From a virus: 24,989 nt of DNA. The notes below the pieces were generated by a model. It saw only the letters and a program-made list of their open reading frames with translations, did no database searches and was not told the DNA's origin. The position numbers and the translations under genes were made by a program. Below, one piece after another: positions 2,099 to 24,179 of the stretch (position 1 is the first letter of the stretch; every line of letters starts with the position of its first letter). Location: IMG/VR virus record IMGVR_UViG_3300008050_000291, positions 1 to 24,989 of that record. The stretch is one strand, 5' to 3'.

Positions 2099-2332
2099 AT
2101 GGCAAAAGTTTATGCGATATCTTTCCATTCAGGTGGTCAGGTACACGAACTGGAAGCTAATTCCCCCGCCGATATTGCCTCTGGCTGGGACTTATCCTTG
2201 AAAGACGTCGAAATCTTCGTTAATGAAGATAAGGCAAACGTGAGCTCTGACCTTCGGGACGGAGATTATGTTTCTTTTCAACGGAATAAAGTCACATCAG
2301 GAAGCGATATTGTAGACTTCGCTCTACGGTAG
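2099..2332 (+). CDS. ubiquitin-like / ThiS-MoaD-type beta-grasp protein (77 aa)
   Basis: Predicted small protein modifier. The layout matches ThiS/MoaD: an N-terminal strand (VYAISFHSGG), a helix (NSPADIASGW), then EIFVNEDKA near residues 39-46 like the conserved VN-x-x-x segment, and DLRDGDYVSFQRNKVTSG near 51-68 like the L-x-x-GD-x-V-x-F...G ending of the family. There is no terminal GG. The protein ends SG-SDIVDFALR, so a 9-residue tail may have to be removed after Gly68 before the C-terminus can be adenylated. The E2-like, JAMM and E1-like genes follow directly, and the JAMM peptidase is the natural candidate for trimming. AAGGAG precedes the start. The fold call is by motif and context, not alignment; MoaD/ThiS-like sulfur carriage is the main alternative. 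Confidence 0.72.
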   Translation: MAKVYAISFHSGGQVHELEANSPADIASGWDLSLKDVEIFVNEDKANVSSDLRDGDYVSFQRNKVTSGSDIVDFALR

Positions 2333-2352
2333 GGTAACTGGTTTGCTTAATG

Positions 2353-2376
2353 TGGGGGCTGAATGTTCGGCCCCCA
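2353..2376 (+). other. strong stem-loop between the Ubl and E2-like genes
   Basis: TGGGGGC and GCCCCCA pair perfectly and the stem continues through a wobble pair and a G-C pair to a six-base loop. The stem is among the most GC-rich sequences in the window. No T-run follows, so it is not a canonical intrinsic terminator. It lies 20 bases after the modifier gene and 30 before the E2-like gene, where it could protect an RNA end or limit read-through so that the modifier is made in excess over its enzymes. Confidence 0.6.
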
Positions 2377-2406
2377 ACCTTTCAACATTTAAACAAGGAG
2401 TAATTA

Positions 2407-3819
2407 ATGGATAAGGGTAAAATCAAATGTCTAATGGAAATATTCCCCGCTTTAAAGCGTATGGATGGAGAAAATAGACAAATACAGCTAGACATCATTG
2501 ATAAAAACTTCGATATACCTTATTGGAGAAATTATGAAGATGTTAATAGTAGTAAGGATGAGGATGGTAACTTTAATCCTTATTACTTTGGCAGTTATGG
2601 TGAAGGCACTGTGCTTTCATCAGCTTTTTTGATAGTAAGATATGACAAAGTAACAATGCGTGGTAGGAGAAAAATCACTTTTGACCCTCAATATGTTCAA
2701 ATTACTCAAAGTCATAGTTCAGATGGTATGCCCTTTCTTAAATGCTACGAGAATACAGCTGTAAATACAGGTGTATATGGTAAAAATTTCTCTGGTAGCG
2801 TTTATGATGGTTGGGATAGACCATTACATCCACACATTTCAAGAAATGAGCCTTGCTTAGGCTCTTTTGAGAATATGTTATATAAAGAAAGCAGGTCTAA
2901 TCCAGTAGCGTATTTTACAGTACTGGGAAAATTCTATAGAACGTGGAATATTGACTCTTGTTTTTGGAATATCAACAGAATGACACCATTGTACAGTGAA
3001 GCAGGAGCTGATAACAATCGGAAGGTTATACTAGATGCTAAAACGTATCAAAGAGTTAGGATAAGTACAGGCACTTCTGATAGTGACTTACGACGTTATA
3101 TTCCTGATTTTATGAAACAAGGATTAGATTTAGTTGACTGCATTGAACCGATTAGAGTACTTGGAGACATTAGACATTCGTGGATGGAAGTATTCTCTAA
3201 CGTAGGCCTCGATAGAAGAGATAGACTTGAGATGGATACTGATTGGAAGGATGATTGGAAGTCTATTTTAAGAAAACTCCAAATGTTGTCAGGTGAAATG
3301 TGGCAATACTACAGACAATCTATCGCTACTCAAGACAGGAGACTGTTAAGGCAGTATTTATCGGTAATTAAAGACCGTTATCAAGGCGATTTTGCATTGG
3401 CGTTAGAAGAAAGATGGAAAGAGGTTATTAACACTAATCTTAAGGAAGTATTACACAGGATGACAATGCCTGCAAATGTTGAAGGTACCTTAAGGCAGTT
3501 TAATAGAGAGCTTATGGAAGGTAATAGTTACCGAACTAATTGGTTGTGGGATAATATGGATTTATTCGGCTTCAGCAATGAAGAAGAAATGGCCTATTTT
3601 GCTGAACCAATGATTTTACCTCCTAGAAGTATGGATGATACCTCAACGACATTCACACCCGAAGACATTATTTCTAAGCTTGAAAAGCTAAAGAGAGAAT
3701 GTGGGAAAATAGCAATTAACAAATTGGATAAACAAAAGGAAGTTATAATTAATGAAATTAAAACTCTCGAGAGCAATTCAATCGAAGATTCAATACTTCA
3801 ACAGCAGATTTCCTTCTAA
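2407..3819 (+). CDS. E2-like (ubiquitin-conjugating-type) protein, large (470 aa)
   Basis: Predicted E2-like conjugating protein. Residues 139-152 read PLHPHISRNEPCLG, matching the E2 signature in which an HPx-type motif is followed after a few residues by the catalytic Cys in CL(G/D); Cys150 is the candidate nucleophile. Bacterial and phage E2-like families often carry this HPH...CLG form. The protein is much longer than a minimal E2 (about 150 aa): about 130 residues precede the motif and roughly 300 follow, the latter mostly helical with a final coiled coil (about 425-460), perhaps for substrate choice. GGAG at 2397-2400 sets the start. The gene overlaps the JAMM gene by 68 bases. The E2 call rests on one motif plus the Ubl/JAMM/E1 context. 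Confidence 0.62.
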   Translation: MDKGKIKCLMEIFPALKRMDGENRQIQLDIIDKNFDIPYWRNYEDVNSSKDEDGNFNPYYFGSYGEGTVLSSAFLIVRYDKVTMRGRRKITFDPQYVQITQSHSSDGMPFLKCYENTAVNTGVYGKNFSGSVYDGWDRPLHPHISRNEPCLGSFENMLYKESRSNPVAYFTVLGKFYRTWNIDSCFWNINRMTPLYSEAGADNNRKVILDAKTYQRVRISTGTSDSDLRRYIPDFMKQGLDLVDCIEPIRVLGDIRHSWMEVFSNVGLDRRDRLEMDTDWKDDWKSILRKLQMLSGEMWQYYRQSIATQDRRLLRQYLSVIKDRYQGDFALALEERWKEVINTNLKEVLHRMTMPANVEGTLRQFNRELMEGNSYRTNWLWDNMDLFGFSNEEEMAYFAEPMILPPRSMDDTSTTFTPEDIISKLEKLKRECGKIAINKLDKQKEVIINEIKTLESNSIEDSILQQQISF

Positions 3820-4567
3820 GGAATGGTCTGGCCCAGCGTGGTATAGTTTAAAGGCAGATAAGAATGGTTTTCCAGTCGAATTTGCCTTAAGCCATTTCCA
3901 TCCACTGGATTTAGGTCACGGTACTGCAACCGAATGGGAAGCAAAGGACTTGGCAAAAGTTCTTAAAACCACATATGATAGCTATCCTAAACTTAAGAAA
4001 TGTTTCTTAGGTTTAATTCATAGTCATCATACTATGGGAGCTTTCTTTTCTGGAACTGATGCCTCTACTTTAAGAGATATGGCTCCAGATGTGGGATTTT
4101 ATTGTAGTCTAGTAGTGGCTACAGCTAAAGACCCATTTGCATTCGCATTTGCGTACAAAGACCAATATGGTCAATCTCAAATGATAGAAATTGATGAAGA
4201 TGATATTACGGGAACACCTGTTAAGGCAGAACAGCCTTGGATAGATGTTGCTGACACGATTGAGAAAGCTAACAAACCTGTAGTGTATGCAGGAACAAAT
4301 GGTCAATTAGGATTTTACCAAGGTGGTAATTATAGACCGGGTTATGGGTATGGAAATACCTATGCAAGCAATGACAAGAAAGCAAATTATGATGATAAAC
4401 AAACCAAGGAGATGGAAGCGTTAGCTAAAGAGCTATCCGACAATCAAATATCTTGGTATGAGTTTAAAGTCAAATCTGAAGAGTTGAATTGCGACCCATT
4501 AGAGTATTGGGATGAACGTCCTGATACTCCGTTTTACTCTAAATCATATGGTGGTTATAATTACTAA
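3752..4567 (+). CDS. JAMM/JAB (MPN) metallopeptidase (271 aa)
   Basis: A zinc isopeptidase-type domain occupies about residues 1-150. HSHHTMGAFFSGTD at 90-103 is a perfect HxHx7SxxD signature (His90, His92, Ser100, Asp103), and Glu24 in KEWSGPAW fits the upstream catalytic Glu. In characterised relatives the domain removes ubiquitin-like proteins from targets or trims their precursors. From about residue 195 there is a Gly/Tyr/Asn-rich low-complexity linker, then a charged helix and a Tyr-rich end. AAAGGA at 3734-3739 precedes the ATG, which lies inside the E2-like gene. The frame and motif are certain; the substrate, presumably the protein encoded at 2099-2332, is inferred from context. JAB proteins of tail-assembly modules carry NlpC domains, which are absent here. 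Confidence 0.88.
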   Translation: MKLKLSRAIQSKIQYFNSRFPSKEWSGPAWYSLKADKNGFPVEFALSHFHPLDLGHGTATEWEAKDLAKVLKTTYDSYPKLKKCFLGLIHSHHTMGAFFSGTDASTLRDMAPDVGFYCSLVVATAKDPFAFAFAYKDQYGQSQMIEIDEDDITGTPVKAEQPWIDVADTIEKANKPVVYAGTNGQLGFYQGGNYRPGYGYGNTYASNDKKANYDDKQTKEMEALAKELSDNQISWYEFKVKSEELNCDPLEYWDERPDTPFYSKSYGGYNY

Positions 4568-4580
4568 TCAGAATAGGTTT

Positions 4581-5240
4581 ATGAGGAACAAAGACCTTAT
4601 TGACCAGAGTAAATTGGATGAAGTAACAATCGTAGGCTTAGGTGGCATCGGTTCTGCCGTTGTCACCTTGGCTAGTGCAATGGGATTTAACAAGATAATA
4701 GGTTATGATGATGACGTATTAGAAGAGCATAATCTTTCTACTTGTGTCTATCCGCACACATTTGTTGGAAAATCTAAGGCTTATGCCGCTAGAGAAACAG
4801 CATTAGTTCACGGTTGTCCTGAGGTTCAAATGGATGAGTCCAAGTGGACTCTGGGTTCTGACTTACCCTTATCAAATAAAGTCATAATGGGCCCAGATAA
4901 TATGGATGCCCGTATGGATGTCTATAGAGGTTGGAAAGAAAATCCTAACAGGGATTGGCTTATTGACTTAAGGATGGGCGCTCTTGCAATGGAAATAATT
5001 ACAGTTACTCCTGAAAATGATAATTTTCTTGAAAGCTGGATACCACAAGGTGAAGAAGTTGTAGAACCTTGTACCGCAAAACATACTATCTTTACTGCTA
5101 CTATGGCCGCAAGTTTCGGATTAAATCAAATCTTGATGCTTGATAAAAAGCCATATTATCAGTATATTTGGATAGGCCTGATGCCTTTTTCTGTAAAGAA
5201 AGAGATGATGGTCTTCCCCCATAAGCAAGGAGAGACATAA
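4581..5240 (+). CDS. ThiF/E1-like adenylating enzyme (219 aa)
   Basis: Predicted to adenylate the C-terminus of the ubiquitin-like protein and pass it on as a thioester. A Rossmann nucleotide loop, VGLGGIGS (18-25), is followed by the acidic GYDDDVLEEHNLSTC segment and GKSKA, in the order found in ThiF/MoeB/E1 proteins. Cys164 in EPCTAKHT is the best candidate for the thioester Cys. The usual NLNRQ motif reads NLSTC, so the ATP-contacting Arg is missing or displaced. No CxxC zinc pair is seen, and the length is about that of a minimal catalytic domain. The frame is open from 4512, but the ATG at 4581, 14 bases after the JAMM stop, gives a better N-terminus. Its TAA overlaps the next ATG by one base. 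Confidence 0.85.
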   Translation: MRNKDLIDQSKLDEVTIVGLGGIGSAVVTLASAMGFNKIIGYDDDVLEEHNLSTCVYPHTFVGKSKAYAARETALVHGCPEVQMDESKWTLGSDLPLSNKVIMGPDNMDARMDVYRGWKENPNRDWLIDLRMGALAMEIITVTPENDNFLESWIPQGEEVVEPCTAKHTIFTATMAASFGLNQILMLDKKPYYQYIWIGLMPFSVKKEMMVFPHKQGET

Positions 5241-6106
5241 TGGAATTAAGCATCCGTAAAGTAACCACGGACTGGCAGGAAATGCCTAGTGGTTTGACTT
5301 ATATGATAATAGGTCAACCTAAAACTGGGAAAACAACTGCCGCAAGTGCGTGGAGTAGTAAGGGTCAAGCTGGTGTTCTTATGATAGACACTGACCTTGG
5401 CTCTGACTTCGTTGATGGAGCAAATACTGTAACCTGTTCTTCTTTGAATGCACCTACCAGAGAGAAAACTCTTGACGGTAAAGTAGTCAGAGAAGGCGGG
5501 CAACCAGTATTGGAGGTAATACCTCCTAAAGAGCGAGGACATTTTGTCCGTTCAGGCCCTGATAAAGGTCAACCGTTGGAAACTTATTCTTTGATAGAGG
5601 TATATCTATATCTTAAAGAGAATTGGGACTCATTACCATATGATACTATAGTCATTGATACACTAGGTCAAGTCAATCGTTGGATTGAAGATGTAGTAAC
5701 AAATGAACTTGGTATAAATGAGATGGGTGAAGGCCAATGGGGAGCCGATTGGGGTAAAGCTCGTAAGAAACATCTCGACGTCGTAAAGCGATTCCAAGAA
5801 CTAATTAAGCAGAAAGGTGGAAACCTTGTGCTTGTAGTTCACAGTAAGACAAGTACACTTACTGATGGCAAAGTTCAACTTATGCCAGAATTGCCACGTG
5901 GTTTGGCTTATGGTCTCACCGCTTCAGCCGATGTTGTAGGTTATACTACAGGTAGTCGTGATGATGAAAAGTATTATATTTCTTTTCTCTCATACGATGA
6001 AAGAGCTGTTGGCAGTAGACTTAAGCCTCTTGCACAAAAGACGTTACCCTTAAACTATGAATCAATAGCTAAAGAAGTTATTGGTTTTAAAACAGAAAAG
6101 GAGTAA
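5240..6106 (+). CDS. Sak4/AAA_24-type RecA-like phage ATPase (288 aa)
   Basis: A RecA-fold P-loop protein. Walker A is GQPKTGKTT (25-33), an early acidic strand is LMIDTDLGSD (about 49-58), and a Walker B-like segment is TIVIDTLGQ. Length and motif order fit the phage nucleotide-binding AAA_24/Sak4 group, whose members promote single-strand annealing recombination with an SSB partner. An SSB-like gene follows six bases after, which supports the call. The ATG at 5240 overlaps the E1-like stop, so this replication gene is probably co-translated with the ubiquitin-like cassette. RecA/UvsX-type full recombinases are longer, making Sak4-like the better reading. Confidence 0.8.
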   Translation: MELSIRKVTTDWQEMPSGLTYMIIGQPKTGKTTAASAWSSKGQAGVLMIDTDLGSDFVDGANTVTCSSLNAPTREKTLDGKVVREGGQPVLEVIPPKERGHFVRSGPDKGQPLETYSLIEVYLYLKENWDSLPYDTIVIDTLGQVNRWIEDVVTNELGINEMGEGQWGADWGKARKKHLDVVKRFQELIKQKGGNLVLVVHSKTSTLTDGKVQLMPELPRGLAYGLTASADVVGYTTGSRDDEKYYISFLSYDERAVGSRLKPLAQKTLPLNYESIAKEVIGFKTEKE

Positions 6107-6729: not shown

Positions 6730-8550
6730 TTGCACTGGGTAGAAGTAGCGATAGGGAGTCCTCGCAACAGGGGACTCCTTATCCCAATAGAGGAAATGCA
6801 CCTCTATGTCCTTGATGAAGGAGATACAAAACCTGTTTATCGTAGTATGTATCTTTACGATGAAGAAGGTAAAGACTATGTAAATAAAAATGGTACTCTA
6901 AAGAATTACTTTGGTACTAGATTTATAGATGAAGTCTTAATTGATATCGACAAAGGGCAGAATTCAGATGCCTTCACTTTAAAGAATGCACAAGGTATTT
7001 TATATGAATTAGAACAACTTGGAGTTCAAGCCGGAGCAATTCAGCCTTACTTTAGTGGAACTGGATACCATATCGCCTTAAGTGGTGAGGTATTTAATTT
7101 TCCCGCAAGTAAAGACCTTCCTTTTGTAGTAAAAAATACTATGACAAGTTTAATTGAAGGTCTTGATGCTAGTGTATATCAAAGGACAGGCATCTACCGC
7201 CTTCCACATACCTTAAATGAAAAACGTGGGTATTTTAAAGTTCCATTGGATATAACAGAACTAATGGGTCTTGGAGTAAAAGAAATCTTAAAGATAGCTG
7301 AAACTCAAAGACTTAATTATGATTATCCAGACTTATGGGGTGATGGTGAGCTTGAAGAGCACGTTATCACTGAAGTACCAAAGATAAGGGCTTTAAAAAC
7401 GGTAGTAGAACCTCGAAACATTGTGCCTTGTGTACAACAAATGTATAAAGATGGCCCCAGTCAGGGCAATAGAAACAATATTATTTTACGTATTGCTTCT
7501 CATTTTAGACGTAACGGTATTCCCTCAGATGCTACTAAAGCTTCCTTATTGTATTGGAATGACAATCAATTAGAAGAAACTGTAGTTCACGAGAAGATTG
7601 AAGCTGTCTATAACGCTGGATACAAATACAGTTGTCACGATAACATAATGAAAGAGTATTGTAAACCTCATTGCATACATTATAATAGGAAAGATTATCT
7701 TATTGATGTACATACAAGTGATGATTTACATAAAGAACTGCGAGAAAGATTAACTTCTGATTTCTCTGGTAGAGTAATTGATTTAGCAAGGAATTTAGGT
7801 ATAAACAGAGATGTTATTATCTTTCCCGGTGAATTAGTTACTGTATTTGGTTCTACAGGTGCTAATAAAACTACATTGGCTCATAATCTTGTTTTAGGTT
7901 ATGACTCTTTGTATGATATTATTCGTACTGAATGGCAGGTACCCACACTTTATCTTTCATTAGAATTAAGTGGTTGGTATATGCACAGAAGAAGTCTTCA
8001 GATAATCAGCGGCAAAGACAAGGACTATGTCAATGAAAATTATGATTCATTGTATGAAGCTCATCACGGGCAATTACAACACATTGTTTTCCAGACTATA
8101 TCTCCTACAATAGAACAAATTAAGGAGAAGGTTAAAGAGCTTAACCCCGCTTGCGTAGTTGTTGATTATATTGACCTTATCGAACCTCCGAAAGGAATTC
8201 GAGGAGAGTATGAAACCATTAGGTACATCTCTCACCAGTTAAGTAATCTAGCTGTAAATTATGATTGTATCATAATACAGATATCTCAGATATCAAGAAC
8301 ATACAGTAGAGACCAAGTATTAGACTTGTATGCTGGTAAAGGTTCTGGAGCAATAGAAAACGCATCACGAAAAGTAGTAGGTATTGAAGGCGAAGCTAAC
8401 AGTACTGCTAAGAGCGTTTCTTTGTTTAAGAACAGTGATGGAGATTTGTTTGAAGGCGTAAAGCTAGAATGGACACCATCATTTAGACTACGGAGGGAAG
8501 ATTATGCACCATCGCTTGATAGTAGCGTCGTCACAAGACGCCAAAAGTGA
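6730..8550 (+). CDS. AEP primase / DnaB-type helicase fusion (606 aa)
   Basis: Predicted to unwind DNA and make primers at the replication fork. The N-terminal half has archaeo-eukaryotic primase features: LIDIDKG with Asp72 and Asp74, SGTGYHIAL with His114, then IYRLPHTLNEKRGYFKVPL. The C-terminal half is a RecA-fold helicase with Walker A GSTGANKTT (374-382, Lys380) and Walker B VVVDYIDLI (Asp479), then a QISQISR segment like DnaB motif H3. The Walker A motif has Asn where the Gly before Lys is usual. The chosen start is a TTG at 6730, since the first in-frame ATG (6796) has its GAGG only two bases away. The domain order resembles fused phage primase-helicases but with an AEP rather than TOPRIM primase. 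Confidence 0.85.
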   Translation: MHWVEVAIGSPRNRGLLIPIEEMHLYVLDEGDTKPVYRSMYLYDEEGKDYVNKNGTLKNYFGTRFIDEVLIDIDKGQNSDAFTLKNAQGILYELEQLGVQAGAIQPYFSGTGYHIALSGEVFNFPASKDLPFVVKNTMTSLIEGLDASVYQRTGIYRLPHTLNEKRGYFKVPLDITELMGLGVKEILKIAETQRLNYDYPDLWGDGELEEHVITEVPKIRALKTVVEPRNIVPCVQQMYKDGPSQGNRNNIILRIASHFRRNGIPSDATKASLLYWNDNQLEETVVHEKIEAVYNAGYKYSCHDNIMKEYCKPHCIHYNRKDYLIDVHTSDDLHKELRERLTSDFSGRVIDLARNLGINRDVIIFPGELVTVFGSTGANKTTLAHNLVLGYDSLYDIIRTEWQVPTLYLSLELSGWYMHRRSLQIISGKDKDYVNENYDSLYEAHHGQLQHIVFQTISPTIEQIKEKVKELNPACVVVDYIDLIEPPKGIRGEYETIRYISHQLSNLAVNYDCIIIQISQISRTYSRDQVLDLYAGKGSGAIENASRKVVGIEGEANSTAKSVSLFKNSDGDLFEGVKLEWTPSFRLRREDYAPSLDSSVVTRRQK

Positions 8551-13092: not shown

Positions 13093-15480
13093 CTACTTTT
13101 CTCCTCCGTATTCCCATCTGATACCTTCCAAAGCTGGTAAAGCTCCCATTATTTTCTTATCAAGAGTAGCTTTAGATAGTGACCCAGCAACCTCTACTTT
13201 ACTGTGAAAGACTCTAATACTAAAATATGAAGTATCGTGAGTTGGAACTTCTTCTATTTTAAAAACAAGTTTAAAATCCTTTCCAAACCCTTTTTGTAAT
13301 TCCGATTCTCCCCGTTTAATTGCAGGGGCAAGTGTCTTTTTCACATATTGTACTGGTGTATCATTACCAGTTATCTTCTTTAAGTTCTTCAAATTGGTAT
13401 CTGTTAAGAAGTCTCTTACAGCTTCAACCACATCAGTACTTGTTCTTAAAAGTCCTTCTTTTTTACCTATTTTTTCAGCTTGTTTTAACAATTCTTCTGG
13501 CGGTACAGGTTGCTTAAACGGGCCAGATATTTTCTTTACGGCCTCGTCAACCGCTTCTCTTGGTTTTCTAAGACCTTGAATACCCACACCTTCATAGAGT
13601 CCGCCAGTTATAATTCTTCTAGCTCCTTTATCTACTGTTGGAAGATTTTTAACATCCTCACTAGCATTTAAAATCACATTATTCTTACCAATGTAATGGA
13701 TAGGGTCTAGCTCAACTGTAAAGTCCATACTCCCTTTACTTTGATTAGCCCAAATAGCATTTAGATTTCCATATTCGTTACTATTAATATTTCTATAATC
13801 TTGCAATCCTGAAAGTGGGCCTGAGGCGTGAGTTCTATCTATGGTATTCATCATTTGGAATGTATCCTGATGTACTGATACTTCACCCGGAACCCCTCCT
13901 GCATCCCTTATTGCTTGTCTTTTTCTATACGCCCTACTTCCAACTTCGCCAGTAACAGCATTATCTGCTCTAGATTGAACTGACAGAGCATAAGCGGATT
14001 TTGAACTCATATTATCGCTAGTCTGTATTCCTCTTGTTCCAAAATCTTTAGCTATATTCATCATATCCGTAGCTTCTTTCGAAGACCTACTCTTTAAAGC
14101 TTTTGATAATGTGTCTATAAATTCATCGTGAACTTGAACTAAATTTATACCCTGTGGTGCTAAATCTGTCACTTCATCCGATGTAAATTTATTTTTAAAC
14201 CAGTTAACGTAGTCCATATCGTCAGATTTTTTATTGAAACCAAGTCTAGGAGGAGAATCATCAGGGAGTCCGTATTTATCAACAAGCTTCTTAATTATTT
14301 CAGCTTCCGTTGCCGCTTCCCATCGTGCCATATCTTCCATAGGTTTAATTCCCACCCCTATTGATATTGAAGATGGCGGTTGACCTACTCTTGTTCCTGC
14401 AATATTACGACTACGTCGTTTTTTACCAGCTTCCTGTATGCCTTCCGCTTCTGCTCTCAAATCATCTGGAAGCTTCTTTAACCCTTTTAAGTGTGCTTCT
14501 GGAAGGCTTGTTGGAGTACCTCTAAGGGGTACAAACACATCCTTTTTTGATACACCCTCAATTCTCTCTCCATAAATAGGGTCACCATTATTGTCCATCT
14601 TTAGTACCTTTCTAGGATTCTTGTCTGGCCCCGGTCTCCATTCAACAATTTCATTAGTCTTAGGATTAATATAGGCGTGGTCTACGCTATCCCAGCCTCC
14701 ACTCCCTTTTTCAGCGGCTGTATAATCTCTACTGCCCCTATTCTTCATTTCTACTCTGTACCTTGCGCCAGTTTTAGGATTTGTAAATGTAGCAAAACTT
14801 TTTAATTGTTTATCGTAATGAGGTAAATCAATATTCCTTATTTTTTCGCCTATTTCAAATTCCATATCTGGGAGGTCAGCCCATTCTTGTCTATTCCCAT
14901 CTGTTAAATGCCCACCACTGTCCTTTATCTCTAAGATTTCAGCTTTTTTCATTCGAATAGAATCATTTCTATTCCACCTACGGAAAGTATCCCAGTCTTT
15001 TACTTCAACACCATTAACCTTTTGACCGGGAACAAACATCTGTTCTCCCCAGCCACGAATTTGTTCTCTATGTTGTCCTGTTATTTGTTGCAATACACTC
15101 TCCGGGTTACTTCTTAAATCCGCATCTGGAATATTTTTAATATCTTCAATTTGTAAATGCAACATTTCATTAAATTTATCTTGAAAATCTGGCCCTACCA
15201 TTTTATGCAATCTTTCAATACCAACTCGCCCACCTAGTTCATTCATTATTTCTTTCTCGTACTTCATTAAGGCTTCCAGACCCTCTGAAGGCATATCTGA
15301 ACCATATGAGTTAGATACTAGCCTTATATCTACGCCTTTATTAGCCAAGGTTGTAGCGTATGCTTTGTGTATATTTTTTCTTAATTGTTCTGTTGTACCT
15401 GCTATATCAGCATATTGTTCGATTGTTCTTAACCCACCTTTAGCTTTCAACATACCTGACATTAATCCTAATATATTCAT
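13093..15480 (-). CDS. large hypothetical, probably virion-associated protein (795 aa)
   Basis: AGGAG lies about 8 bases before the ATG, which overlaps the giant gene's stop as TAATG, so the two are co-translated. The protein is soluble and mixed alpha/beta, with a helical N-terminus (to about 170), a basic loop-rich middle containing a KKRRSRNIAGTRVG stretch (about 353-366), and a C-terminal part with strands (FKLVFKIEEVP; YFSIRVFHSKVEV). No peptidase, lysozyme or tail-fibre repeat is visible. By context it is likely a capsid-interior or ejected protein partner of the giant, but no function can be assigned from sequence. Confidence 0.75.
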   Translation of the reverse strand: MNILGLMSGMLKAKGGLRTIEQYADIAGTTEQLRKNIHKAYATTLANKGVDIRLVSNSYGSDMPSEGLEALMKYEKEIMNELGGRVGIERLHKMVGPDFQDKFNEMLHLQIEDIKNIPDADLRSNPESVLQQITGQHREQIRGWGEQMFVPGQKVNGVEVKDWDTFRRWNRNDSIRMKKAEILEIKDSGGHLTDGNRQEWADLPDMEFEIGEKIRNIDLPHYDKQLKSFATFTNPKTGARYRVEMKNRGSRDYTAAEKGSGGWDSVDHAYINPKTNEIVEWRPGPDKNPRKVLKMDNNGDPIYGERIEGVSKKDVFVPLRGTPTSLPEAHLKGLKKLPDDLRAEAEGIQEAGKKRRSRNIAGTRVGQPPSSISIGVGIKPMEDMARWEAATEAEIIKKLVDKYGLPDDSPPRLGFNKKSDDMDYVNWFKNKFTSDEVTDLAPQGINLVQVHDEFIDTLSKALKSRSSKEATDMMNIAKDFGTRGIQTSDNMSSKSAYALSVQSRADNAVTGEVGSRAYRKRQAIRDAGGVPGEVSVHQDTFQMMNTIDRTHASGPLSGLQDYRNINSNEYGNLNAIWANQSKGSMDFTVELDPIHYIGKNNVILNASEDVKNLPTVDKGARRIITGGLYEGVGIQGLRKPREAVDEAVKKISGPFKQPVPPEELLKQAEKIGKKEGLLRTSTDVVEAVRDFLTDTNLKNLKKITGNDTPVQYVKKTLAPAIKRGESELQKGFGKDFKLVFKIEEVPTHDTSYFSIRVFHSKVEVAGSLSKATLDKKIMGALPALEGIRWEYGGEK

Positions 15481-18400
15481 TAAAACGCTCCTGATATACC
15501 TTTTGGCCCAAGCATTTCATCATCCTTATGCTTAGTTACCTGTCTAGAGAATTGCATATATGGTAAACCCGTCATTTTCTCAACTGACCTCATTGGGTTT
15601 TCCATCATTCCACCGGGGCCAGCTACATCTCTAGCTATTCTACCAAAGGGGAACATAGTCCACATTGTATAATCAGCTAACTTGCTATAATCGTCTGTTA
15701 CCATACCCTTAAATAGAGACGGGAGCAATCTTAATGAAGGTGGAGTTACTAACTGTAAAGGCGCAACTTGTGAAGGCCAAGCACCAAAGAAAGCCCTGTC
15801 TCGCTCTTTTTCATCACCAAGTAACCAATCAGCTGTATCCTGTAAGTAATTCCAAGGAGCTGGTAAGGCACTTTCAAAAAGAGAGTACATAAATACATTA
15901 CTTAAGCCCAACATAAGCAAATCAGCAGTAGCTAACCTCTGAAATCTCTCAAATTCAGGAGTTCCTTCCTGCCAACCTCTGTAATGAGCTTCATTTATAA
16001 CATCTTTTCTAAATCTAACAGCGTTCCAAGCCCATAATTGGAACCTTGTCATCATTTTACCAAGGGAAGTAGCGGCAAACATAGGTCTAAATGGAGCAGA
16101 ATACAGAAATTGAGTCGCTTTTACGCCCTTTTTAGCCATTTCCATAAGTATCGGATGGTCAAATTGCTTAATAGCACCACCAAATTTCTCTTTTGCTTGG
16201 ATATAATGAGCCATAAACGCATCTCTTCTCAAAATACGCTCAGGTTCTCGCATAAACCACGCCGCTTTGTTTAAAACTGCTTCTGTTATTCCGTGTGATT
16301 GAGCAAGGGTTGATAAATCCTCATCTTTCATATTGGGGTCTTTTCTAATTTTAGCTACAGCATCCTGCATAAACTTGCCCCATTTTTTCCCCTTTAATTC
16401 AGGATTCATTGATGCTTCATATAAAAGGAACTCTTCAATTACGCCCTGTGACCTAACAAATGCCTCTACATCTGCCATCGTTTCCCACTTAGGATTAACG
16501 TGGGATTTTAGATAATTAATATCACGAGCTTTTTTAAAATTGCCGTAACCAGTATTAATAAGAGTATGCACTGACCCGCCATATAGATTGGCTATTGCAC
16601 TCTTGGGATGAGCAAGGAGAGAGGCCAGCGCATATTTTGCTTCCATATTACTTAGCCTAGCTATAGTACTCATATCGTAAGGGCCACCCATTTCAGGGAA
16701 TGTTTCCTGCATCTTACTTTTAGAAATACCAAGTTTATTGGCTATACTGTTCATTTTCTTAGTAACCTCTGAATCAGCAGTAAAAGCATACATACTGCCT
16801 TTTAATTTCATATTAGGATTTTTCATAACTGATTCTGGAATCTTAGTTGGATAGCCCATAGCACCTTGAGTATACAAGTTGAAGAATGTTCTCCAAGAAT
16901 TAATAAGGTCTAAATCTTTAGAAGAAACATCTGCTCCTCTTTTTTCCTTACTAGGTTCAGATTTTGCTGGTTTACCACCAGCTTTTACCCACTGGTTGTA
17001 AGACCATCCTACAATAGCATCCTTTGTTATAATCTGTGAAGCAAGGCGGTAGTATGTATCGTGTATATTCTTGATATATGTTTCGTAAGCTTCAGGACTC
17101 CTATCCCAACCATCAATATGAGCCTTACGACTAAATTGATTACCCATTTTTTTATTATGAAACCAAGTTATTCTACCCTCAGACATCTTACGTTTTTGCA
17201 CCAAATCTTGGACTATGTTTTGTACTTGGTCAAAGTGCTCACCGAAAGTATCCATAGCCATATAGTCACCAGTCATTTGATTGTGGTGGATTAGGATTTT
17301 TCTAATTTCAATATCTTTCTCTTCTTTGCTCATACTCTTGTTATTAAGAATGAAGTCCATCCCAACTTCCATTTGTTTTGCGGCCGCTTTCCTATTAAAG
17401 TTTAAATGCGGGAAATATATATCAAAATCATACTGTCCAGTAGCTTCATTATCTCTTGGTAAGTTCTTCATAATTTCAGTACGTTCTTTCTGGAATTCTG
17501 CTGGTATTTGACTAATCATCACTCGACGAGCAATCCATCTTAAGCCATCAATACCTAAATCCATTTTGAATCGTTTACCTTCATTTATTGTCTGAACAAT
17601 GTCCTTAAGAAACTTTTTCTTAATAGCATTATAATATTCAAAATCATTTAATTCTTCACCAGTCTTTTTGTTTACTCTAAGATTCTTATAAGGTTCTAAA
17701 GCTTCAGGCTTTCCAACAAGCCACTCGTGTGATTCTGCATTCTTCTTAGTGTAAACCTCGTTAATAGAGTCAACAATCTCTCGACCAGTCATATTAATAA
17801 CTTCAGCATTAGGCTTCTTTACTAAAAATGATTGGTCTTTGAGTAAATCCCAACCGTGTTTCTTTGGTATATGTCTATAAGCTTTATCATAAGACTCCTT
17901 CATAAAGAGATACATACCATTATCTTGAGTCTCATATTGTTCCTTCCACCTATTAGGAACTTCCATTTCTCTAAAAGCAATAGCAATCTCGTGAAGGTCA
18001 TACCCCCTATCCAGATTCAGGTACTGAGATAACTCTTTTCTAATGGCTATTTTCTCTTCTTCTGAACCAGCAATACTCCATTCTTGCCCTTTGTGAATAT
18101 AGTCCTGTATGACCTCCATAACTCCAGTTGGTTTCATTATCCTACCAGAGATAACATTACCATGTACATCCTTAAACGAGCCTCTCCTCTCAAGTAATAA
18201 TATCTCTTTCCTCATTAAATCTCTATTAACAGCCTCTGGAAACATCATATAATGCCATTTTGTTAACTCAGGTATACCTCTTTTTACCTTATTAAACAAT
18301 TTTTGATACCAAGTTCCAGTAAGTGTGTCCTCTAGCCACCTATCTAGGGCTTTTAATTCACTTAAATCAACTTTATTTATATCTTTTCCAAATCTTTCTC

Positions 18401-21400
18401 TCATAAATCCATTTAAATCCCTTCCTACAATATTGGGAAATGCAACATCTAATTTTTCTTTAAGAGAATTATATAATTGTCTATGCTCTTTGTTTAATTT
18501 CCCTTCATATAGCCCTTCAAAAGGAGCTACCTCATCTAAGTATTTCTGTGTAACGGCATCATAATCACTGGCTTCTAATGGATTCCCCTTAGTACGTTCT
18601 CCTGTTTTAGGGTCAAATAGCTCAGTAGGAGCTTTAGCTTCTGAAGCTTCTTCCTTGACTCGTGCTTTCTCAGATTCACTGACAACATCTATTGATTTAT
18701 CAAATATTTCCTGATAGTTTTTAAAAAACTCTTTCTTCATACTATCTTTTACGGATTCTGAAATTATGCCAAGCTTACTTAATGATGTATTAGCACTCAT
18801 CTCTTCGAGTGAATTAATCTGCTCTTTAAATCCTTGAGACCACTTATTCCCCTTATATCCTTCAATCATTTTTTGTACTTCGTGTCTATTACCACGAGAA
18901 AAAGTACCAAGCATAAGAGCATCATATAAGTTTGCTTCCTCTGGGGTAAGAGTTGCCTTATGGAGCTTTATCTTTATATCTGTTTTAATTTGGTCTTGAG
19001 CTGAAGAGAGCTTCTCTGGAGCAAATTGTAATTCCATTTCTTTGATATAATTTGCTTCTGATTCAGAAAGACCAGATAGAATTGGTTCAAGAGGCATTTT
19101 TCTTTGCCTAGCATACAAATAACTTTGTTTTTTAACTTGGTCTACGTAATCCCAAACTTTTTTAATCTGAGCATCCGACATACCTTCAGTATATTTCTTG
19201 ATTAATCTTAAACTAACAAAATCAGATATATCATCAGTAATAAATCTTTCTCCCTTAAGCATAATATCACGAATAATTTCAGCTCTATGTTCAACATTAT
19301 TCTCAGGGTCTAGCTTTCTTCGTCTAGCTTTGGTATAACCATTAAAAGCTTTTCCACTAAACAGTTTCTTCTTATAACCTTTATGATTTGGGTCTAACTG
19401 AGCATCAAAACCTTCTTGGGTAAATAACTTGTTTTTGAATATAATATCAAGATAAGCATTCATAGGTGTTCTCATACTTGACCTACCCATAGCGTCTCTT
19501 AAGGGTTTCATTTCTTGGGCTAATAAATCGTGCTCCGCATATAAAGCTTTATACTCTTCAAATTTGATTCTCTTGAAGATACTATCACCCATATCAACAC
19601 CTCTAAGAGTATCTGCTAATTTAGGTAAAAGACTATTGTGAGGCGTACCAGCAAAACTTTCATTAGCAAATTCTATTTCTTGTTGTATTTCTTCTGGTAA
19701 CCACCTTCTTCCCTCTGGGATATTTCTACCAAATAAGACTGAATTAACTCTAGAGAGAGAGCGGATAAGACCTTGTCTCATCATAAATTCATTATTATTC
19801 ATCTGTTTTGTAAGTTTTTTATGAACACCACCCTTCTTACCCATAAATCTTACTTCAAAGTTGAAAGCCCTCTTTGCCGCTTCCATAAAAAATACTTCTC
19901 GGCCTCTTAATCCAGCTTCATCCATGGGGTCAGAACCCAAGGCAATAGATGCTCTTGTTATACCCCTAAAACTCTCCATTGATTTAGAATCTGTTTTTGG
20001 AGTAAGGACAATTTTATATAATCCAGCATATTTACCGCTAAATTGCTTAAGATAACTGAATTCACCTGATTCAGAAGCTCTTATAGCGGCATATGCACTG
20101 CTTAATACAGCTTTATTTACAACAGCGGGGCCAAGTTGCTTACGTCCACCTGCCGCACCAAAGGATGCTTTCATCCTTCTATGTGGTGATAGCTTTAAAA
20201 CTGAACTATTAATCTTGTTTAATGTGTCCTCATCAGTAAAAGCCAGCATATCTTTATATTGTTTTCCAGTCAATGGGTCTATCTCTGTCTTTTGATGAGC
20301 AACAGTACCGTCTTTCTTATAAAACTCTTCTTTTTGACTGCCGTACATATCCATCCAGCTCTGTTTAAAGCCTTCACCACTTGTGCCATCCTCTGAACGA
20401 CCACCAAAGAAGCCAAATGCCTTGTCGCCGTCTAAATCAGCCCCTCCTAACGCTTCCATAGTTCTTGGGTGTAAGAGTGTACCAAAACCCCTAACGCCCG
20501 TAAAGCCCTTAAATTGGAGCTTATGAGCCCCACTGAGTGAATCCATTGGAGTTCTTTGTACAATAGCTGATAAAGTGTTCTCTACTTGCTTCTTTACCTT
20601 CCCGCTAAAACGTCCTTTATTATAATCAGTCCAAACATCTTCAAGTCTTCTATAACCGTCCCAAGACTCAGAAAATACTCTCATATCCTTATAACCATCA
20701 TCAAGGAAGAAGATATCATCCCTCTTTTCAAGGAGTGACGTATTATGTCCAGCTTTTCTTTGATAACGTAAGCCCATCTCATAAGGTCTCATTCTAGCTG
20801 AAAAAGAATTCTTTACAACTGGTCTTACTATTTGGTTTACTACAAAATTACGCATTACAGTCTGTCTATAGGGTGTCACATATTTGTGCATAAGTCCAGC
20901 AAGAGAATCACCCACAAGCTCTTGTATTTTTTCGTGAACAACATTTAGCTCCTGCTTATCCCCTTTTAAAGCATCGTATTCCTCTTTGGTAATCTCACCT
21001 TCATTTAAAGCTCTTTCAGCGTCTGTTTCTAAATCCATACGTTGAATTTTACGATATACCTTAGTAGCAAAAGACTCCATACCGGGCTTTTTCATAACTG
21101 CTAATAGCTCTTTTACGCCTACTCCTTCAAGATTGTTTAATACGGCGGCTTCAAAAGCTTCATTTTTAGGATTCTTTTCAAGCATTTTTAATTGAGCATT
21201 AGTTTCAGCGTCGCCATTGAAAGATTTGCGACTTAAATCGTTATAAATATCATCTATTTGCTCTGGTTTAATATTTTGCCAAGCATAAGGAGTAAGATTT
21301 GATAACATCTGTTTGGGTAATCTTTGCCACTGCATTGAGTGGCTATCAAATTTTTCAGAGAGAACACCTTTCATCTCATTTGGCTTCATATGGTAAACTT

Positions 21401-24179
21401 CACCACCCTCAACAGATATTTTTCCACCCTTGCGAACAATTTCACCGAATTTTCTCGTTCCGTATTGTTTCGCCGCACTCTTAGGTACCATAAAATGAAG
21501 ATTATTCTCTTTCATATAGGCTTCCATCTCAGGTGTCGCTGAAAAGACAGCATATTTACCAAGTAAAGCACCTAGGCCACGCTGACTATTGGAAACTATA
21601 AAACTCTTATGAGCCCCACCCTCTGTTGGCATTCCCCAATCTCTATTTTGCGAATCAATAACATCACTTCTACCATATATAGCACCATCGGTGCCTTGAA
21701 TCATTTCTGTTGCAGGAGTATCCTTTGTAAATTTTTTAGTATCTTTCTCATTGAACAGTCTAAAACGAAAATTGCCATTATCTAAATCCGTAATATCTTT
21801 CTCTATTTTCCGATTATCTCCGCTAAATCCAGTAGTAAACCACACTTGTGCACGCTTATTGTAAGCCTTAGAGCTATTTATCATTCCTTCCCCAAAGATT
21901 GATTTAATATTTCCCGATACTAAATCATTTGAAAATCCATTTAACTCAAGTTCATATAATACATTGGATAAGTAGCCACGATTGAACATAGTTTTAGCAG
22001 TTCTATCACTTCTCATATCAGCTCTCATATGAGGACTATAAGTCTTAATATACTCATCTCTTTCAGCATTTAACTCTTTGGTAAATTGGTTCTTAAATGA
22101 CTGGACAGTTCTTTTCTTCTGCCCCTTCTTTTGCCCCTCATATTGAGCCTGTGCCCAAGCGTCTCTTACCTCTTTGATTCCTGTCTGATGAGCTATTTTT
22201 GGAGTATCTGGATGATATTGTACAAAGTACATTCTTTCAGCATCCCCTTTTCCTCCATAATAATACATATCCTGCTTGTTATGTAAAGAATAGAAATTTC
22301 TTGCGTGAAATTTGTCTGTCATATCTCTAGCCTTACTACGAGCCATCTCAACGCCTTGGAGATAAGGTAGTCCTGCTGATTTTGCCGCATTGATAGCTGG
22401 TTGCAATTCATTCCTATAATAGAATTCTTCCATCTCAAGCAAACTAAGTTCCTTCATCCTGTTATTAGTTATACCAGTAAAACTATCCATTACAGCATAA
22501 GTTGGAGCTTCAGAATCCCTGCCGTGCTTCCTAAGAAATGCTTCATTATAAATTTTATCTAAAAGCTTAGGCTCTTCTTTTAAAAGTTTACGATTACCAG
22601 CCGCATTACTGCCACCTTGTGGCAAAACTTCCCAATGTTGGGAACCTTTTTTAGCATAAGCTTTAGCAGTTAACATAGTAACAGGCTTTTCTTTAAGGGC
22701 CCTTATCGCATATTGCCTCCACCATCTATCAGCCTCATCTTTTGGGGCAACTCCATACTTTTTCTGTAGAAACTTAATCATACTTGCCTCAGGCGAATCA
22801 TCCTCACCTCTCTGAGCCTTGCCTAATATCTTTTTCCACTGAGTATCAACATCAACAATAGTTTTTACTCGTTCTTTATTTGGAGTATCCCCCTTTGACC
22901 AGATTTTTTCCATATTACGAGTAACAAAATTATCTATCTTTAAATGGACTCCGTGAGCAGAGCCAATATCAGCATCATCTTGTTGGCCTTTTTGGACTCT
23001 CTCATCAACAGGTAATTCTACAGTTTTAATAAGTTCCCCATACTGGTCTATAGTAACGCCTTTTTCAAGTATTTTATTAGCAATACTTTGACGTTCTTTA
23101 AGGGGCATACCCGGTAAATCTTGTAATAATTGATTCATTATAATATTAGCAGTAATAGGACGACCTATCTCATCAACTTGTCCTCTAACTTTATCTGCTA
23201 ATTCTACTGCCGCTTTTTGAGACTTGGAGTCTAATTTCCCAAATTCAGGGTGACCCTCTACCGGCTCTCCAATCGTACCGTCCTTGAACCGAGCGGCAAC
23301 AAACTTTTGTGCATTTCTCGTCGTATATGGCATCTCTTTGAACCCGAAGTAAGCACCAAGGAGATACTGATATACTTGCTCAGGAGTCGTTGCACCAGCC
23401 ATAGTCGAAGGTAATCCAGAATACACCGAAGCAGACACCGTCCGTAATAGCTTGTCACCTTGAGGGTCACCTGTTTTTATAAAATTTCCTATTCCTCTAA
23501 ACACAGCACCAGTTTCAGCTCCGTGTATAAAGGCAGTCATCATTTCATCAATACCTCCTTGCCAAGCACTTATTGCACTAGCAGTACCAAGATGAAAAGC
23601 TCCCTCAACAATATCATCAACAAGAGGGCCAGCTTTACCAATAGTGGACATAGCATCTTTAGTTGCATTACCTCTAAGAAGCGTAGCTTCAGCTTTTGCA
23701 CCTCTGGCTATCCTACTTGCTTCTTTTGTAAGCCAATTAGCACCTATCATAGGGATTGAACGCCCTTTAATCGCTTTAGCGGCGGCGGCTAATCTACTTG
23801 CCTTACCTACGGCATTTGGAATTGGTACCCAACCTACAAATCCAGCTAAATGTCCAACATTTCGTGCTATAGCTTCCCACTCATTAGTAGGGTCTTCACC
23901 CATTTTTAAAGTAGTGAAACCTTCACCAAAGCCAGAAGCGGCTTGTTGGACTATCCTTTTTACTGATATATCATTATCAGCCTTATTATGAGCAAAGGGG
24001 ATGTTATAATGTTGGGCGTGAAGAGCTACCTTATTTAACTTTTCTTCGTCAAACTGGTCAGGGAATTGATTATAATATGTAACAAGCTGTTCAGTAAGCC
24101 TATAATCTATAGAAGGCTCAAATCCAGCATTCGGGTCGAATTCCTCTTTATGCTCTTTGGGGTAATATGTTTCGGGCAT
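15480..24179 (-). CDS. giant protein with a two-barrel (DxDGD) RNA polymerase-like core (2899 aa)
   Basis: One frame of 8.7 kb without a break. Residues about 830-905 carry TDGAIYG (830-836), LLGKYAVF with Lys875, and MVPKSAAKQ (897-905, Lys900/904), matching the first double-psi barrel of QDE-1/YonO/crAss-type polymerases. Residues 1209-1211 are R-T-P, like the R-x-P of the second barrel, followed by LHPRTMEALGG and D1248-L-D-G-D1252, equivalent to the Mg-binding DxDGD of RNA polymerases; QLGPAVVNK follows near 1348. The N-terminal 800 and C-terminal 1500 residues are mostly helical, with hydrophobic stretches near 110-125 and 2754-2769. Size and gene context suggest packaging and injection with the DNA. 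The start overlaps the upstream stop (TAATG). A non-polymerase polyvalent protein is the alternative. Confidence 0.72.
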   Translation of the reverse strand: MPETYYPKEHKEEFDPNAGFEPSIDYRLTEQLVTYYNQFPDQFDEEKLNKVALHAQHYNIPFAHNKADNDISVKRIVQQAASGFGEGFTTLKMGEDPTNEWEAIARNVGHLAGFVGWVPIPNAVGKASRLAAAAKAIKGRSIPMIGANWLTKEASRIARGAKAEATLLRGNATKDAMSTIGKAGPLVDDIVEGAFHLGTASAISAWQGGIDEMMTAFIHGAETGAVFRGIGNFIKTGDPQGDKLLRTVSASVYSGLPSTMAGATTPEQVYQYLLGAYFGFKEMPYTTRNAQKFVAARFKDGTIGEPVEGHPEFGKLDSKSQKAAVELADKVRGQVDEIGRPITANIIMNQLLQDLPGMPLKERQSIANKILEKGVTIDQYGELIKTVELPVDERVQKGQQDDADIGSAHGVHLKIDNFVTRNMEKIWSKGDTPNKERVKTIVDVDTQWKKILGKAQRGEDDSPEASMIKFLQKKYGVAPKDEADRWWRQYAIRALKEKPVTMLTAKAYAKKGSQHWEVLPQGGSNAAGNRKLLKEEPKLLDKIYNEAFLRKHGRDSEAPTYAVMDSFTGITNNRMKELSLLEMEEFYYRNELQPAINAAKSAGLPYLQGVEMARSKARDMTDKFHARNFYSLHNKQDMYYYGGKGDAERMYFVQYHPDTPKIAHQTGIKEVRDAWAQAQYEGQKKGQKKRTVQSFKNQFTKELNAERDEYIKTYSPHMRADMRSDRTAKTMFNRGYLSNVLYELELNGFSNDLVSGNIKSIFGEGMINSSKAYNKRAQVWFTTGFSGDNRKIEKDITDLDNGNFRFRLFNEKDTKKFTKDTPATEMIQGTDGAIYGRSDVIDSQNRDWGMPTEGGAHKSFIVSNSQRGLGALLGKYAVFSATPEMEAYMKENNLHFMVPKSAAKQYGTRKFGEIVRKGGKISVEGGEVYHMKPNEMKGVLSEKFDSHSMQWQRLPKQMLSNLTPYAWQNIKPEQIDDIYNDLSRKSFNGDAETNAQLKMLEKNPKNEAFEAAVLNNLEGVGVKELLAVMKKPGMESFATKVYRKIQRMDLETDAERALNEGEITKEEYDALKGDKQELNVVHEKIQELVGDSLAGLMHKYVTPYRQTVMRNFVVNQIVRPVVKNSFSARMRPYEMGLRYQRKAGHNTSLLEKRDDIFFLDDGYKDMRVFSESWDGYRRLEDVWTDYNKGRFSGKVKKQVENTLSAIVQRTPMDSLSGAHKLQFKGFTGVRGFGTLLHPRTMEALGGADLDGDKAFGFFGGRSEDGTSGEGFKQSWMDMYGSQKEEFYKKDGTVAHQKTEIDPLTGKQYKDMLAFTDEDTLNKINSSVLKLSPHRRMKASFGAAGGRKQLGPAVVNKAVLSSAYAAIRASESGEFSYLKQFSGKYAGLYKIVLTPKTDSKSMESFRGITRASIALGSDPMDEAGLRGREVFFMEAAKRAFNFEVRFMGKKGGVHKKLTKQMNNNEFMMRQGLIRSLSRVNSVLFGRNIPEGRRWLPEEIQQEIEFANESFAGTPHNSLLPKLADTLRGVDMGDSIFKRIKFEEYKALYAEHDLLAQEMKPLRDAMGRSSMRTPMNAYLDIIFKNKLFTQEGFDAQLDPNHKGYKKKLFSGKAFNGYTKARRRKLDPENNVEHRAEIIRDIMLKGERFITDDISDFVSLRLIKKYTEGMSDAQIKKVWDYVDQVKKQSYLYARQRKMPLEPILSGLSESEANYIKEMELQFAPEKLSSAQDQIKTDIKIKLHKATLTPEEANLYDALMLGTFSRGNRHEVQKMIEGYKGNKWSQGFKEQINSLEEMSANTSLSKLGIISESVKDSMKKEFFKNYQEIFDKSIDVVSESEKARVKEEASEAKAPTELFDPKTGERTKGNPLEASDYDAVTQKYLDEVAPFEGLYEGKLNKEHRQLYNSLKEKLDVAFPNIVGRDLNGFMRERFGKDINKVDLSELKALDRWLEDTLTGTWYQKLFNKVKRGIPELTKWHYMMFPEAVNRDLMRKEILLLERRGSFKDVHGNVISGRIMKPTGVMEVIQDYIHKGQEWSIAGSEEEKIAIRKELSQYLNLDRGYDLHEIAIAFREMEVPNRWKEQYETQDNGMYLFMKESYDKAYRHIPKKHGWDLLKDQSFLVKKPNAEVINMTGREIVDSINEVYTKKNAESHEWLVGKPEALEPYKNLRVNKKTGEELNDFEYYNAIKKKFLKDIVQTINEGKRFKMDLGIDGLRWIARRVMISQIPAEFQKERTEIMKNLPRDNEATGQYDFDIYFPHLNFNRKAAAKQMEVGMDFILNNKSMSKEEKDIEIRKILIHHNQMTGDYMAMDTFGEHFDQVQNIVQDLVQKRKMSEGRITWFHNKKMGNQFSRKAHIDGWDRSPEAYETYIKNIHDTYYRLASQIITKDAIVGWSYNQWVKAGGKPAKSEPSKEKRGADVSSKDLDLINSWRTFFNLYTQGAMGYPTKIPESVMKNPNMKLKGSMYAFTADSEVTKKMNSIANKLGISKSKMQETFPEMGGPYDMSTIARLSNMEAKYALASLLAHPKSAIANLYGGSVHTLINTGYGNFKKARDINYLKSHVNPKWETMADVEAFVRSQGVIEEFLLYEASMNPELKGKKWGKFMQDAVAKIRKDPNMKDEDLSTLAQSHGITEAVLNKAAWFMREPERILRRDAFMAHYIQAKEKFGGAIKQFDHPILMEMAKKGVKATQFLYSAPFRPMFAATSLGKMMTRFQLWAWNAVRFRKDVINEAHYRGWQEGTPEFERFQRLATADLLMLGLSNVFMYSLFESALPAPWNYLQDTADWLLGDEKERDRAFFGAWPSQVAPLQLVTPPSLRLLPSLFKGMVTDDYSKLADYTMWTMFPFGRIARDVAGPGGMMENPMRSVEKMTGLPYMQFSRQVTKHKDDEMLGPKGISGAF

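Follow-up and report, generated by a model that had tools for sequence, protein, structure and literature searches.

Bub and PRTRC (the ParB-related, ThiF-related cassette of plasmids and chromosomal islands) are known four-gene bacterial operons that encode a ubiquitin-like protein (Ubl). Ubl operons of bacteria have been described in several studies (PMC1779556, PMC11354881, PMC10097602), and the Bil and type II CBASS systems are anti-phage Ubl systems of this kind (PMC11354881, PMC10097602). In the Bil system, the JAMM protease processes the Ubl, BilA contains two Ubl domains, the E1 (BilD) is made of two domains and includes a Cys domain, and BilB has a catalytic Cys-Glu-His-His signature in which Glu, His and His follow the Cys at +6, +8 and +13 (PMC11354881). 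Most ubiquitin-style kits known so far belong to cells or to the defence operons of bacteria, and the bacterial cassettes have been studied as anti-phage weapons, whereas the full set described here is the property of a phage. The window that was analysed comprises 24,989 bases of viral DNA (IMG/VR record IMGVR_UViG_3300008050_000291), and its positions 2099-5240 encode a Ubl, an E2-like protein, a JAMM protease and an E1, which probably constitute a self-contained and reversible phage-made pathway of Ubl conjugation. If it is active, viruses of prokaryotes would encode a pathway for the reversible tagging of proteins.

The initial annotation had placed four adjacent rightward genes with diagnostic motifs in this interval, and all four open reading frames are found there with their motifs, co-oriented on the plus strand in the order Ubl, E2-like, JAMM and E1. 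The E2-like frame shares its last 68 nucleotides with the JAMM frame, and the E1 frame opens within the JAMM gene. Relatives were collected by a scan of IMG/VR, which returned at least 379 JAMM-encoding contigs and 123 relatives of the E1; the best 80 of each were retrieved, leaving 119 distinct loci, fetched through JAMM or E1, once duplicates had been dropped. Conservation as a unit, as opposed to separate conservation of the genes, had been set as a test beforehand, and the genes turned out to be retained as a unit. Among the 70 loci in which 3.6 kb or more precede the E1, to which the gene-order count was restricted, JAMM is encoded in 70/70, the E2-like protein in 70/70 and a recognised Ubl in 68/70, the E2 and Ubl counts being partly circular as both profiles were derived from the same loci. 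For the joint presence of JAMM and E1 the circularity is smaller, because the loci were fetched via one or the other. The order Ubl-E2-JAMM-E1 is kept in all of the 68 loci that have four genes, and one of the two exceptions (L123 in our numbering of loci) has a Ubl-like protein, visible by eye, that ends in SSKISAGNY. Furthermore, the pairwise divergences of JAMM, E1 and E2 correlate with one another (Spearman 0.67-0.78, p 0.001, 79 loci), as for genes that are inherited together. The conserved order and the invariant residues given below go well beyond what chance would produce.

The Ubl modifier (2099..2332, +) is a beta-grasp protein of 77 residues, with a tail ...NKVTSG68 that is followed by the nine-residue extension SDIVDFALR. 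Its AlphaFold (AF2) model, with a predicted local distance difference test score (pLDDT) of 81, shows the order strand-strand-helix-strand-strand-strand of ThiS, MoaD and ubiquitin, and the top Foldseek matches in the PDB are Mth1743, SUMO, TtuB, archaeal ubiquitin and MoaD, with a probability of about 1. The family profile matches ThiS (4e-4, the best PDB match), SAMP2 and MoaD, and Pfam ThiS is found in 11 of 46 members (best 6e-4), which agrees with the ThiS/MoaD-like beta-grasp Ubl first proposed for this gene. G68 is the sole invariant residue in the alignment of 46 relatives. Non-crAss tails stop at or soon after this conserved Gly, as in KVKSG, KVASGK and TSGQ, or, in another non-crAss clade, NKTGG, NKRGGNQ and NNKSGGDQ, each followed directly by the stop codon; the window Ubl has nine residues beyond the Gly and the crAss Ubls have more than 100. 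The natural reading of these tails is that JAMM would expose the Ubl glycine. In one crAss-type Ubl protein (L138:3265-4203), the extension past SG contains a ribosomal L7/L12 C-terminal domain (3.1e-10).

The JAMM/MPN+ metalloprotease (3752..4567, +; 271 residues, with E24, H90, H92, S100 and D103) contains the motif HSHHTMGAFFSGTD, in which HxHx7SxxD is intact at H90/H92/S100/D103, and it exceeds the Pfam Prok-JAB cut-off of 25 with 26.2 bits, in line with the original JAMM assignment. By profile, CSN5 and archaeal Rpn11-like proteins come out best among the solved structures, at weak E-values, and the metal motif is retained in 110/112 loci. The E1/ThiF-like adenylyltransferase (4581..5240, +) has 219 residues from the likely ATG, while the frame opens at 4512 (242 residues); its catalytic Cys codon (5070-5072) is accordingly C164 from the ATG at 4581, where the earlier numbering had put it, and C187 from 4512. 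The ATP-binding motif is GLGGIGS, the Pfam ThiF score is 49 bits against a cut-off of 28.1, and the best solved relatives by profile are UBA5 (1e-13), MccB, ThiF and MoeB, with a weak match to the Bub E1. The catalytic Cys, D152 and R154 are each retained in 119/119 loci. The identities of the Ubl, JAMM and E1 are established by these profile and structure searches. Searches of the Ubl and 470-residue window proteins themselves with Pfam, PHROGs, NCBIfam and PADLOC gave no matches.

The E2-like protein (2407..3819, +) has 470 residues, and its candidate catalytic residue C150 (2854-2856) lies in the motif HPHISRNEPCLG, downstream of HPH at 141-143 (2827-2835). Among 44 relatives in the window clade, invariance is limited to H141, H143, C150 and G152. 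The crAss clade has a longer spacer and retains the first His in 18/20 members, whereas its second His is found in 20/20, as are the Cys and the Gly; the third, long clade retains the Cys and Gly in 15/15, mostly as [HF]P[FY][IV]...GN[ITVL]C[FLY]G; the two His are not retained there and are replaced by HPF or YPY-type sequences. The motif resembles HPNI...ICL of UBC proteins, to which the long clade comes close, as well as PH[VL]...C of Prok-E2_B. The clades are joined by profile at 83% (n-l, for the long clade) and at 38% (n-c, for the crAss clade), and a Foldseek search of the BFVD viral models joins the E2-like protein to its crAss-like phage counterparts (probability 0.84-1.0); tblastn of the window protein against cultured phages gave no match, and the link between window and crAss proteins came via synteny, profile and structure. 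In the long clade (L110, L118, L130, L133, L141, L142 and others), a conserved CxxC...C cluster lies C-terminal to the motif, a candidate zinc-binding site that may provide an E3-like or substrate-binding part.

The AF2 model of the E2-like protein is mostly at pLDDT 80-97 over residues 1-250, where helix, strands, motif loop and two helices follow one another in the order of a UBC/RWD domain, while the C-terminal half is helical and poorly conserved. The GCN2 RWD domain is at rank 8 in the Foldseek PDB list (probability 0.18), and inner-kinetochore Ctf19/Mcm21 entries, which we take to be RWD proteins, are at ranks 2, 4 and 5 with low probability. PDB profile searches with the E2-like alignments gave no matches. 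In the non-significant profile comparison with PRTRC_B, the E2-like profile of each clade scores higher than five unrelated decoys, and the best alignment, also under significance, pairs Cys with Cys in two of the three clades. The label E2 is used because of the invariant HxH...CxG, the place in the operon, and the weak RWD-type fold and profile matches. The invariant residues and the persisting Cys-x-Gly point to an E2-type chemistry without proving the fold, and the 470-residue protein is read as a putative new E2-type family; if it is active, such a family would bear on the origins of E2 enzymes.

The cassette shares its four-gene composition of Ubl, E2 (E2-like in the phage), JAMM and E1 with the anti-phage Bil (BilABCD) and Bub operons, while their setting is bacterial defence and that of the cassette is a phage replication block. 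Unlike Bil, the phage set has a single-domain Ubl of 77 residues, a minimal E1 of ThiF size (about 219 residues) and an HxH upstream of the Cys. Moreover, the BilB signature is absent, as the window reads C150LGSFENMLYKESRSN with no His at the respective positions. PRTRC has the order E2 (E2-like in the phages), JAMM, E1 in common with the phages (B-A-ThiF, L170-L178), its JAMM and E1 are related to the phage proteins in profile-profile hhalign comparisons (89-96% and 97-99%), and an FFS.TD signature is common to both JAMM groups. However, the phage proteins fall far under the PRTRC cut-offs of NCBIfam (14.4/101.8 bits for PRTRC_A, 20.5/144.75 for ThiF, and no match to PRTRC_B or PRTRC_C), on which grounds membership of PRTRC was rejected. 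The PRTRC E2, of about 250 residues with NV..G.[VI]C.G, is not significantly alike the phage E2-like protein, and none of the PRTRC D, E and F genes is recognised beside the phage cassette. Thus, the cassette differs from the known bacterial Ubl operons while its JAMM and E1 have a common ancestry with those of PRTRC, and it is counted as a new variant of such operons because it lies below the PRTRC cut-offs and lacks the BilB signature. A cellular PRTRC-like cassette in a Lentisphaerae metagenome-assembled genome (L166, 5692-9840) encodes a JAMM, with HSHCNMGAFFSGTDD, that is unusually close to the phage JAMM, and this cassette is a possible intermediate.

A phage-borne Ubl beside a JAB peptidase is also found in TAPI (Ub-like) and TAPK (JAB/NlpC), as it is here (PMC1779556). 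Unlike the present cassette, TAPI and TAPK belong to a tail cluster without E1 or E2. The archaeal SAMP/UbaA/JAMM system and that of Caldiarchaeum offer further parallels, since the phage Ubl matches archaeal ubiquitin by structure and SAMP2 by profile and the JAMM is Rpn11-like; both systems are cellular, however, and that of Caldiarchaeum, unlike the phages, includes a RING E3 along with a canonical E2. The SAMP system is not known to use an E2. No earlier description of the phage cassette was found among open-licence papers, although preprints or subscription journals may contain one; the main text of two crAss papers (PMC7886860, PMC6235969) mentions neither ubiquitin nor ThiF, and other literature searches gave just bacterial or tail-cluster Ubl cases.

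In cultured phages, tblastn found the E1 in 78 and JAMM in 74 records, mostly at about 25-36% identity, and the carriers, DAC15 among them, are almost all crAss-like Bacteroides phages, which include cultured phages of the gut, and the Flavobacterium phages Fpv. In the genomes that were examined, a protein of about 390-440 residues precedes the JAMM/E1 pair and is itself preceded by a ThiS-like protein, the N-terminal domain of which ends in KKIKSG or QVKSGG, and aligning the four genes across cultured phages shows shared motifs. PhiCrAss001 carries the set, with intact motifs, as gp79 (Ubl), gp78 (E2), gp77 (JAMM) and gp76 (E1), so the analysis suggests functions for four adjacent genes of which two are annotated as 'hypothetical', one as 'metalloprotease domain' and one as 'thiamine biosynthesis ThiF'. 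When the JAMM scan was run over 84,980 cellular species genomes, it yielded 6 weak matches, and a plasmid search with the E1 gave just weak, generic matches of the ThiF/MoeB type. One of the 6 is on a short contig of a 'Spirochaetia' metagenome-assembled genome (L163, contig RZYO01000145); all of a crAss-type cassette is encoded there, and the contig has the appearance of crAss-like phage DNA that was binned into a bacterial genome.

From the families of the Ubl, JAMM and E1, the invariance of the catalytic residues, the conservation as a unit and the genomic setting, we infer how such a pathway could work. The JAMM protease would trim the short Ubl tail past Gly68, and the E1 would adenylate Gly68 and then bind the Ubl by a thioester to its own invariant Cys (C187/C164). 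The Ubl would be handed to Cys150 of the E2-like protein, with HPH in the role of the HPN motif of ubiquitin E2s, and the E2, without a separate E3, would place it on target lysines via its long variable C-terminal half, from which JAMM could take it off again. Since several deep phage lineages keep the genes firmly within their replication/recombination block, the targets would most likely be phage or host proteins engaged in DNA replication and in takeover. On a wider view, to which we give even chances, the core module, widespread in tailed phages including the crAss-like ones, would be a complete viral system for attaching and removing a Ubl, with a new E2 family of its own, that tags proteins of the phage replication machinery, or host proteins during takeover, in a manner that might be likened to SUMO and ubiquitin at eukaryotic replication forks.

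Several observations weigh against this pathway. The initial annotation had proposed an E2-like protein around Cys150, of which the HxH...CxG motif proved to be invariant in the window clade while a significant match to the UBC fold was not obtained: Pfam and PDB-sequence searches of the 470-residue protein returned no E2/UBC family at significance, Foldseek of the whole model against the PDB returned nothing significant, and hhalign against PRTRC_B and Prok-E2_B references stayed under significance. Thus, of the suggested profile checks, those of the Ubl, JAMM and E1 gave matches and those of the E2 families fell short. In addition, removal of the long crAss-clade Ubl extension past SG is presumed, the E2 and Ubl counts share the circularity described above, the cassette lacks an E3 and a proteasome- or Clp-type partner, and none of the literature that was searched describes a conjugate from such phages.

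The main rival for the role keeps the same conjugation chemistry and turns it against host immunity or competing phages, as counter-defence or superinfection exclusion instead of a regulator of replication. Since Bil and type II CBASS exist as anti-phage Ubl systems, a phage could use or sabotage such chemistry; however, genes of defence and counter-defence are usually patchy accessories, whereas the cassette is a fixed part of the replication block in several deep lineages, with genes that diverge together, and PADLOC finds only generic E1 and JAB similarity in the window proteins. We consider this role unlikely, though deserving of attention. Alternatively, the 470-residue protein might be a dedicated substrate or adaptor of a minimal Ubl/E1/JAMM system, with H141, H143 and C150 as a metal or structural site. 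The missing significant E2 fold or family match would suit such a role, and a Cys and two His could bind metal, but the long clade loses the two His and retains the Cys and Gly, a pattern more in keeping with a catalytic Cys than with a metal site, chains of RWD type (UBC superfamily) come up repeatedly near the head of the structural matches, and the PRTRC_B alignment sets Cys on Cys as described above, all of which makes a substrate or adaptor improbable.

The main chemical rival is a sulfur-carrier pathway, in which a ThiS/MoaD/CysO-like Ubl is made into a thiocarboxylate by the E1, JAMM frees the C-terminal Gly as Mec+ does for CysO, and the 470-residue protein accepts the sulfur or acts as a thiolation enzyme, for instance in nucleotide or tRNA modification. 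The top PDB match of the Ubl profile is indeed ThiS, the E1 has the minimal size of ThiF/MoeB-like proteins, and E1 and JAMM with a ThiS-like protein, without an E2, form a known sulfur arrangement (PMC1779556). On the other hand, no sulfurtransferase, rhodanese, cysteine synthase or thiolase is recognised among the conserved neighbours, the conserved E2-like Cys motif of the extra protein would be left unexplained, and the E1 profile scores highest to UBA5, an E1 of protein conjugation, so that we regard this pathway as improbable. A hitchhiking host operon was rejected on account of the conservation across deep phage lineages and the near absence from cellular genomes.

The setting of the cassette in a phage replication block, also predicted at the outset, is confirmed by its neighbours. 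An AAA_24/Sak4-like ATPase (5240..6106, +; Pfam AAA_24 1.7e-20, PHROG Sak4-like 3.9e-26) lies immediately downstream of the cassette in 77/119 loci, and a primase-helicase (6730..8550, +; Pfam PriCT_1 and DnaB_C) is near it in 82/119, according to neighbourhood clustering. In the window clade, the cassette is thus followed by the Sak4-like ATPase, a 200-residue protein of unknown function and the primase-helicase (77-82/119 loci), and in crAss-like phages a DNA primase comes before it and a uracil-DNA glycosylase after it.

Ubl and E2-like genes are separated by the sole clear intergenic gap of the cassette (2333-2406), which contains a hairpin (2354..2375, +) that is weak in the window (z -1.62, 17/200 shuffles). 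Most non-crAss loci have a strong hairpin in this gap: 16/20 tested gaps have hairpins with z <= -2.0, and 13/20 are matched by at most 1/200 shuffles; the hairpin is at the same position with unrelated sequence. It may be a terminator- or attenuator-like or an mRNA-processing element, and a partial terminator or processing site by which the Ubl is made in excess of the enzymes would be in keeping with a tag needed in stoichiometric amounts and enzymes that act catalytically.

Other genes adjoin the cassette in some subgroups. A SET-domain protein is encoded just 5' of the Ubl in L024 (4838-5203, Pfam 6.8e-10) and also in L026, L029, L030, L031 and L034; SET being a lysine methyltransferase fold, this is a second eukaryote-like protein-modification gene beside the cassette in that subgroup. 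ParB-like proteins near the cassette in one subgroup (L081:555-1331, also L062, L070 and L090; ParB_N 0.002, under the cut-off, along with pattern matches) are of interest given the ParB-related name of PRTRC, and a gene resembling the radical-SAM spore photoproduct lyase lies just 5' of the cassette in L007 (4352-5227, Pfam SPL 1.4e-22). Lastly, a 2,899-residue open reading frame at 15480-24179 (-) of the window, which has no match in Pfam, PHROGs or cultured phages, forms together with 13093-15480 (795 residues) a leftward block that faces the replication genes.

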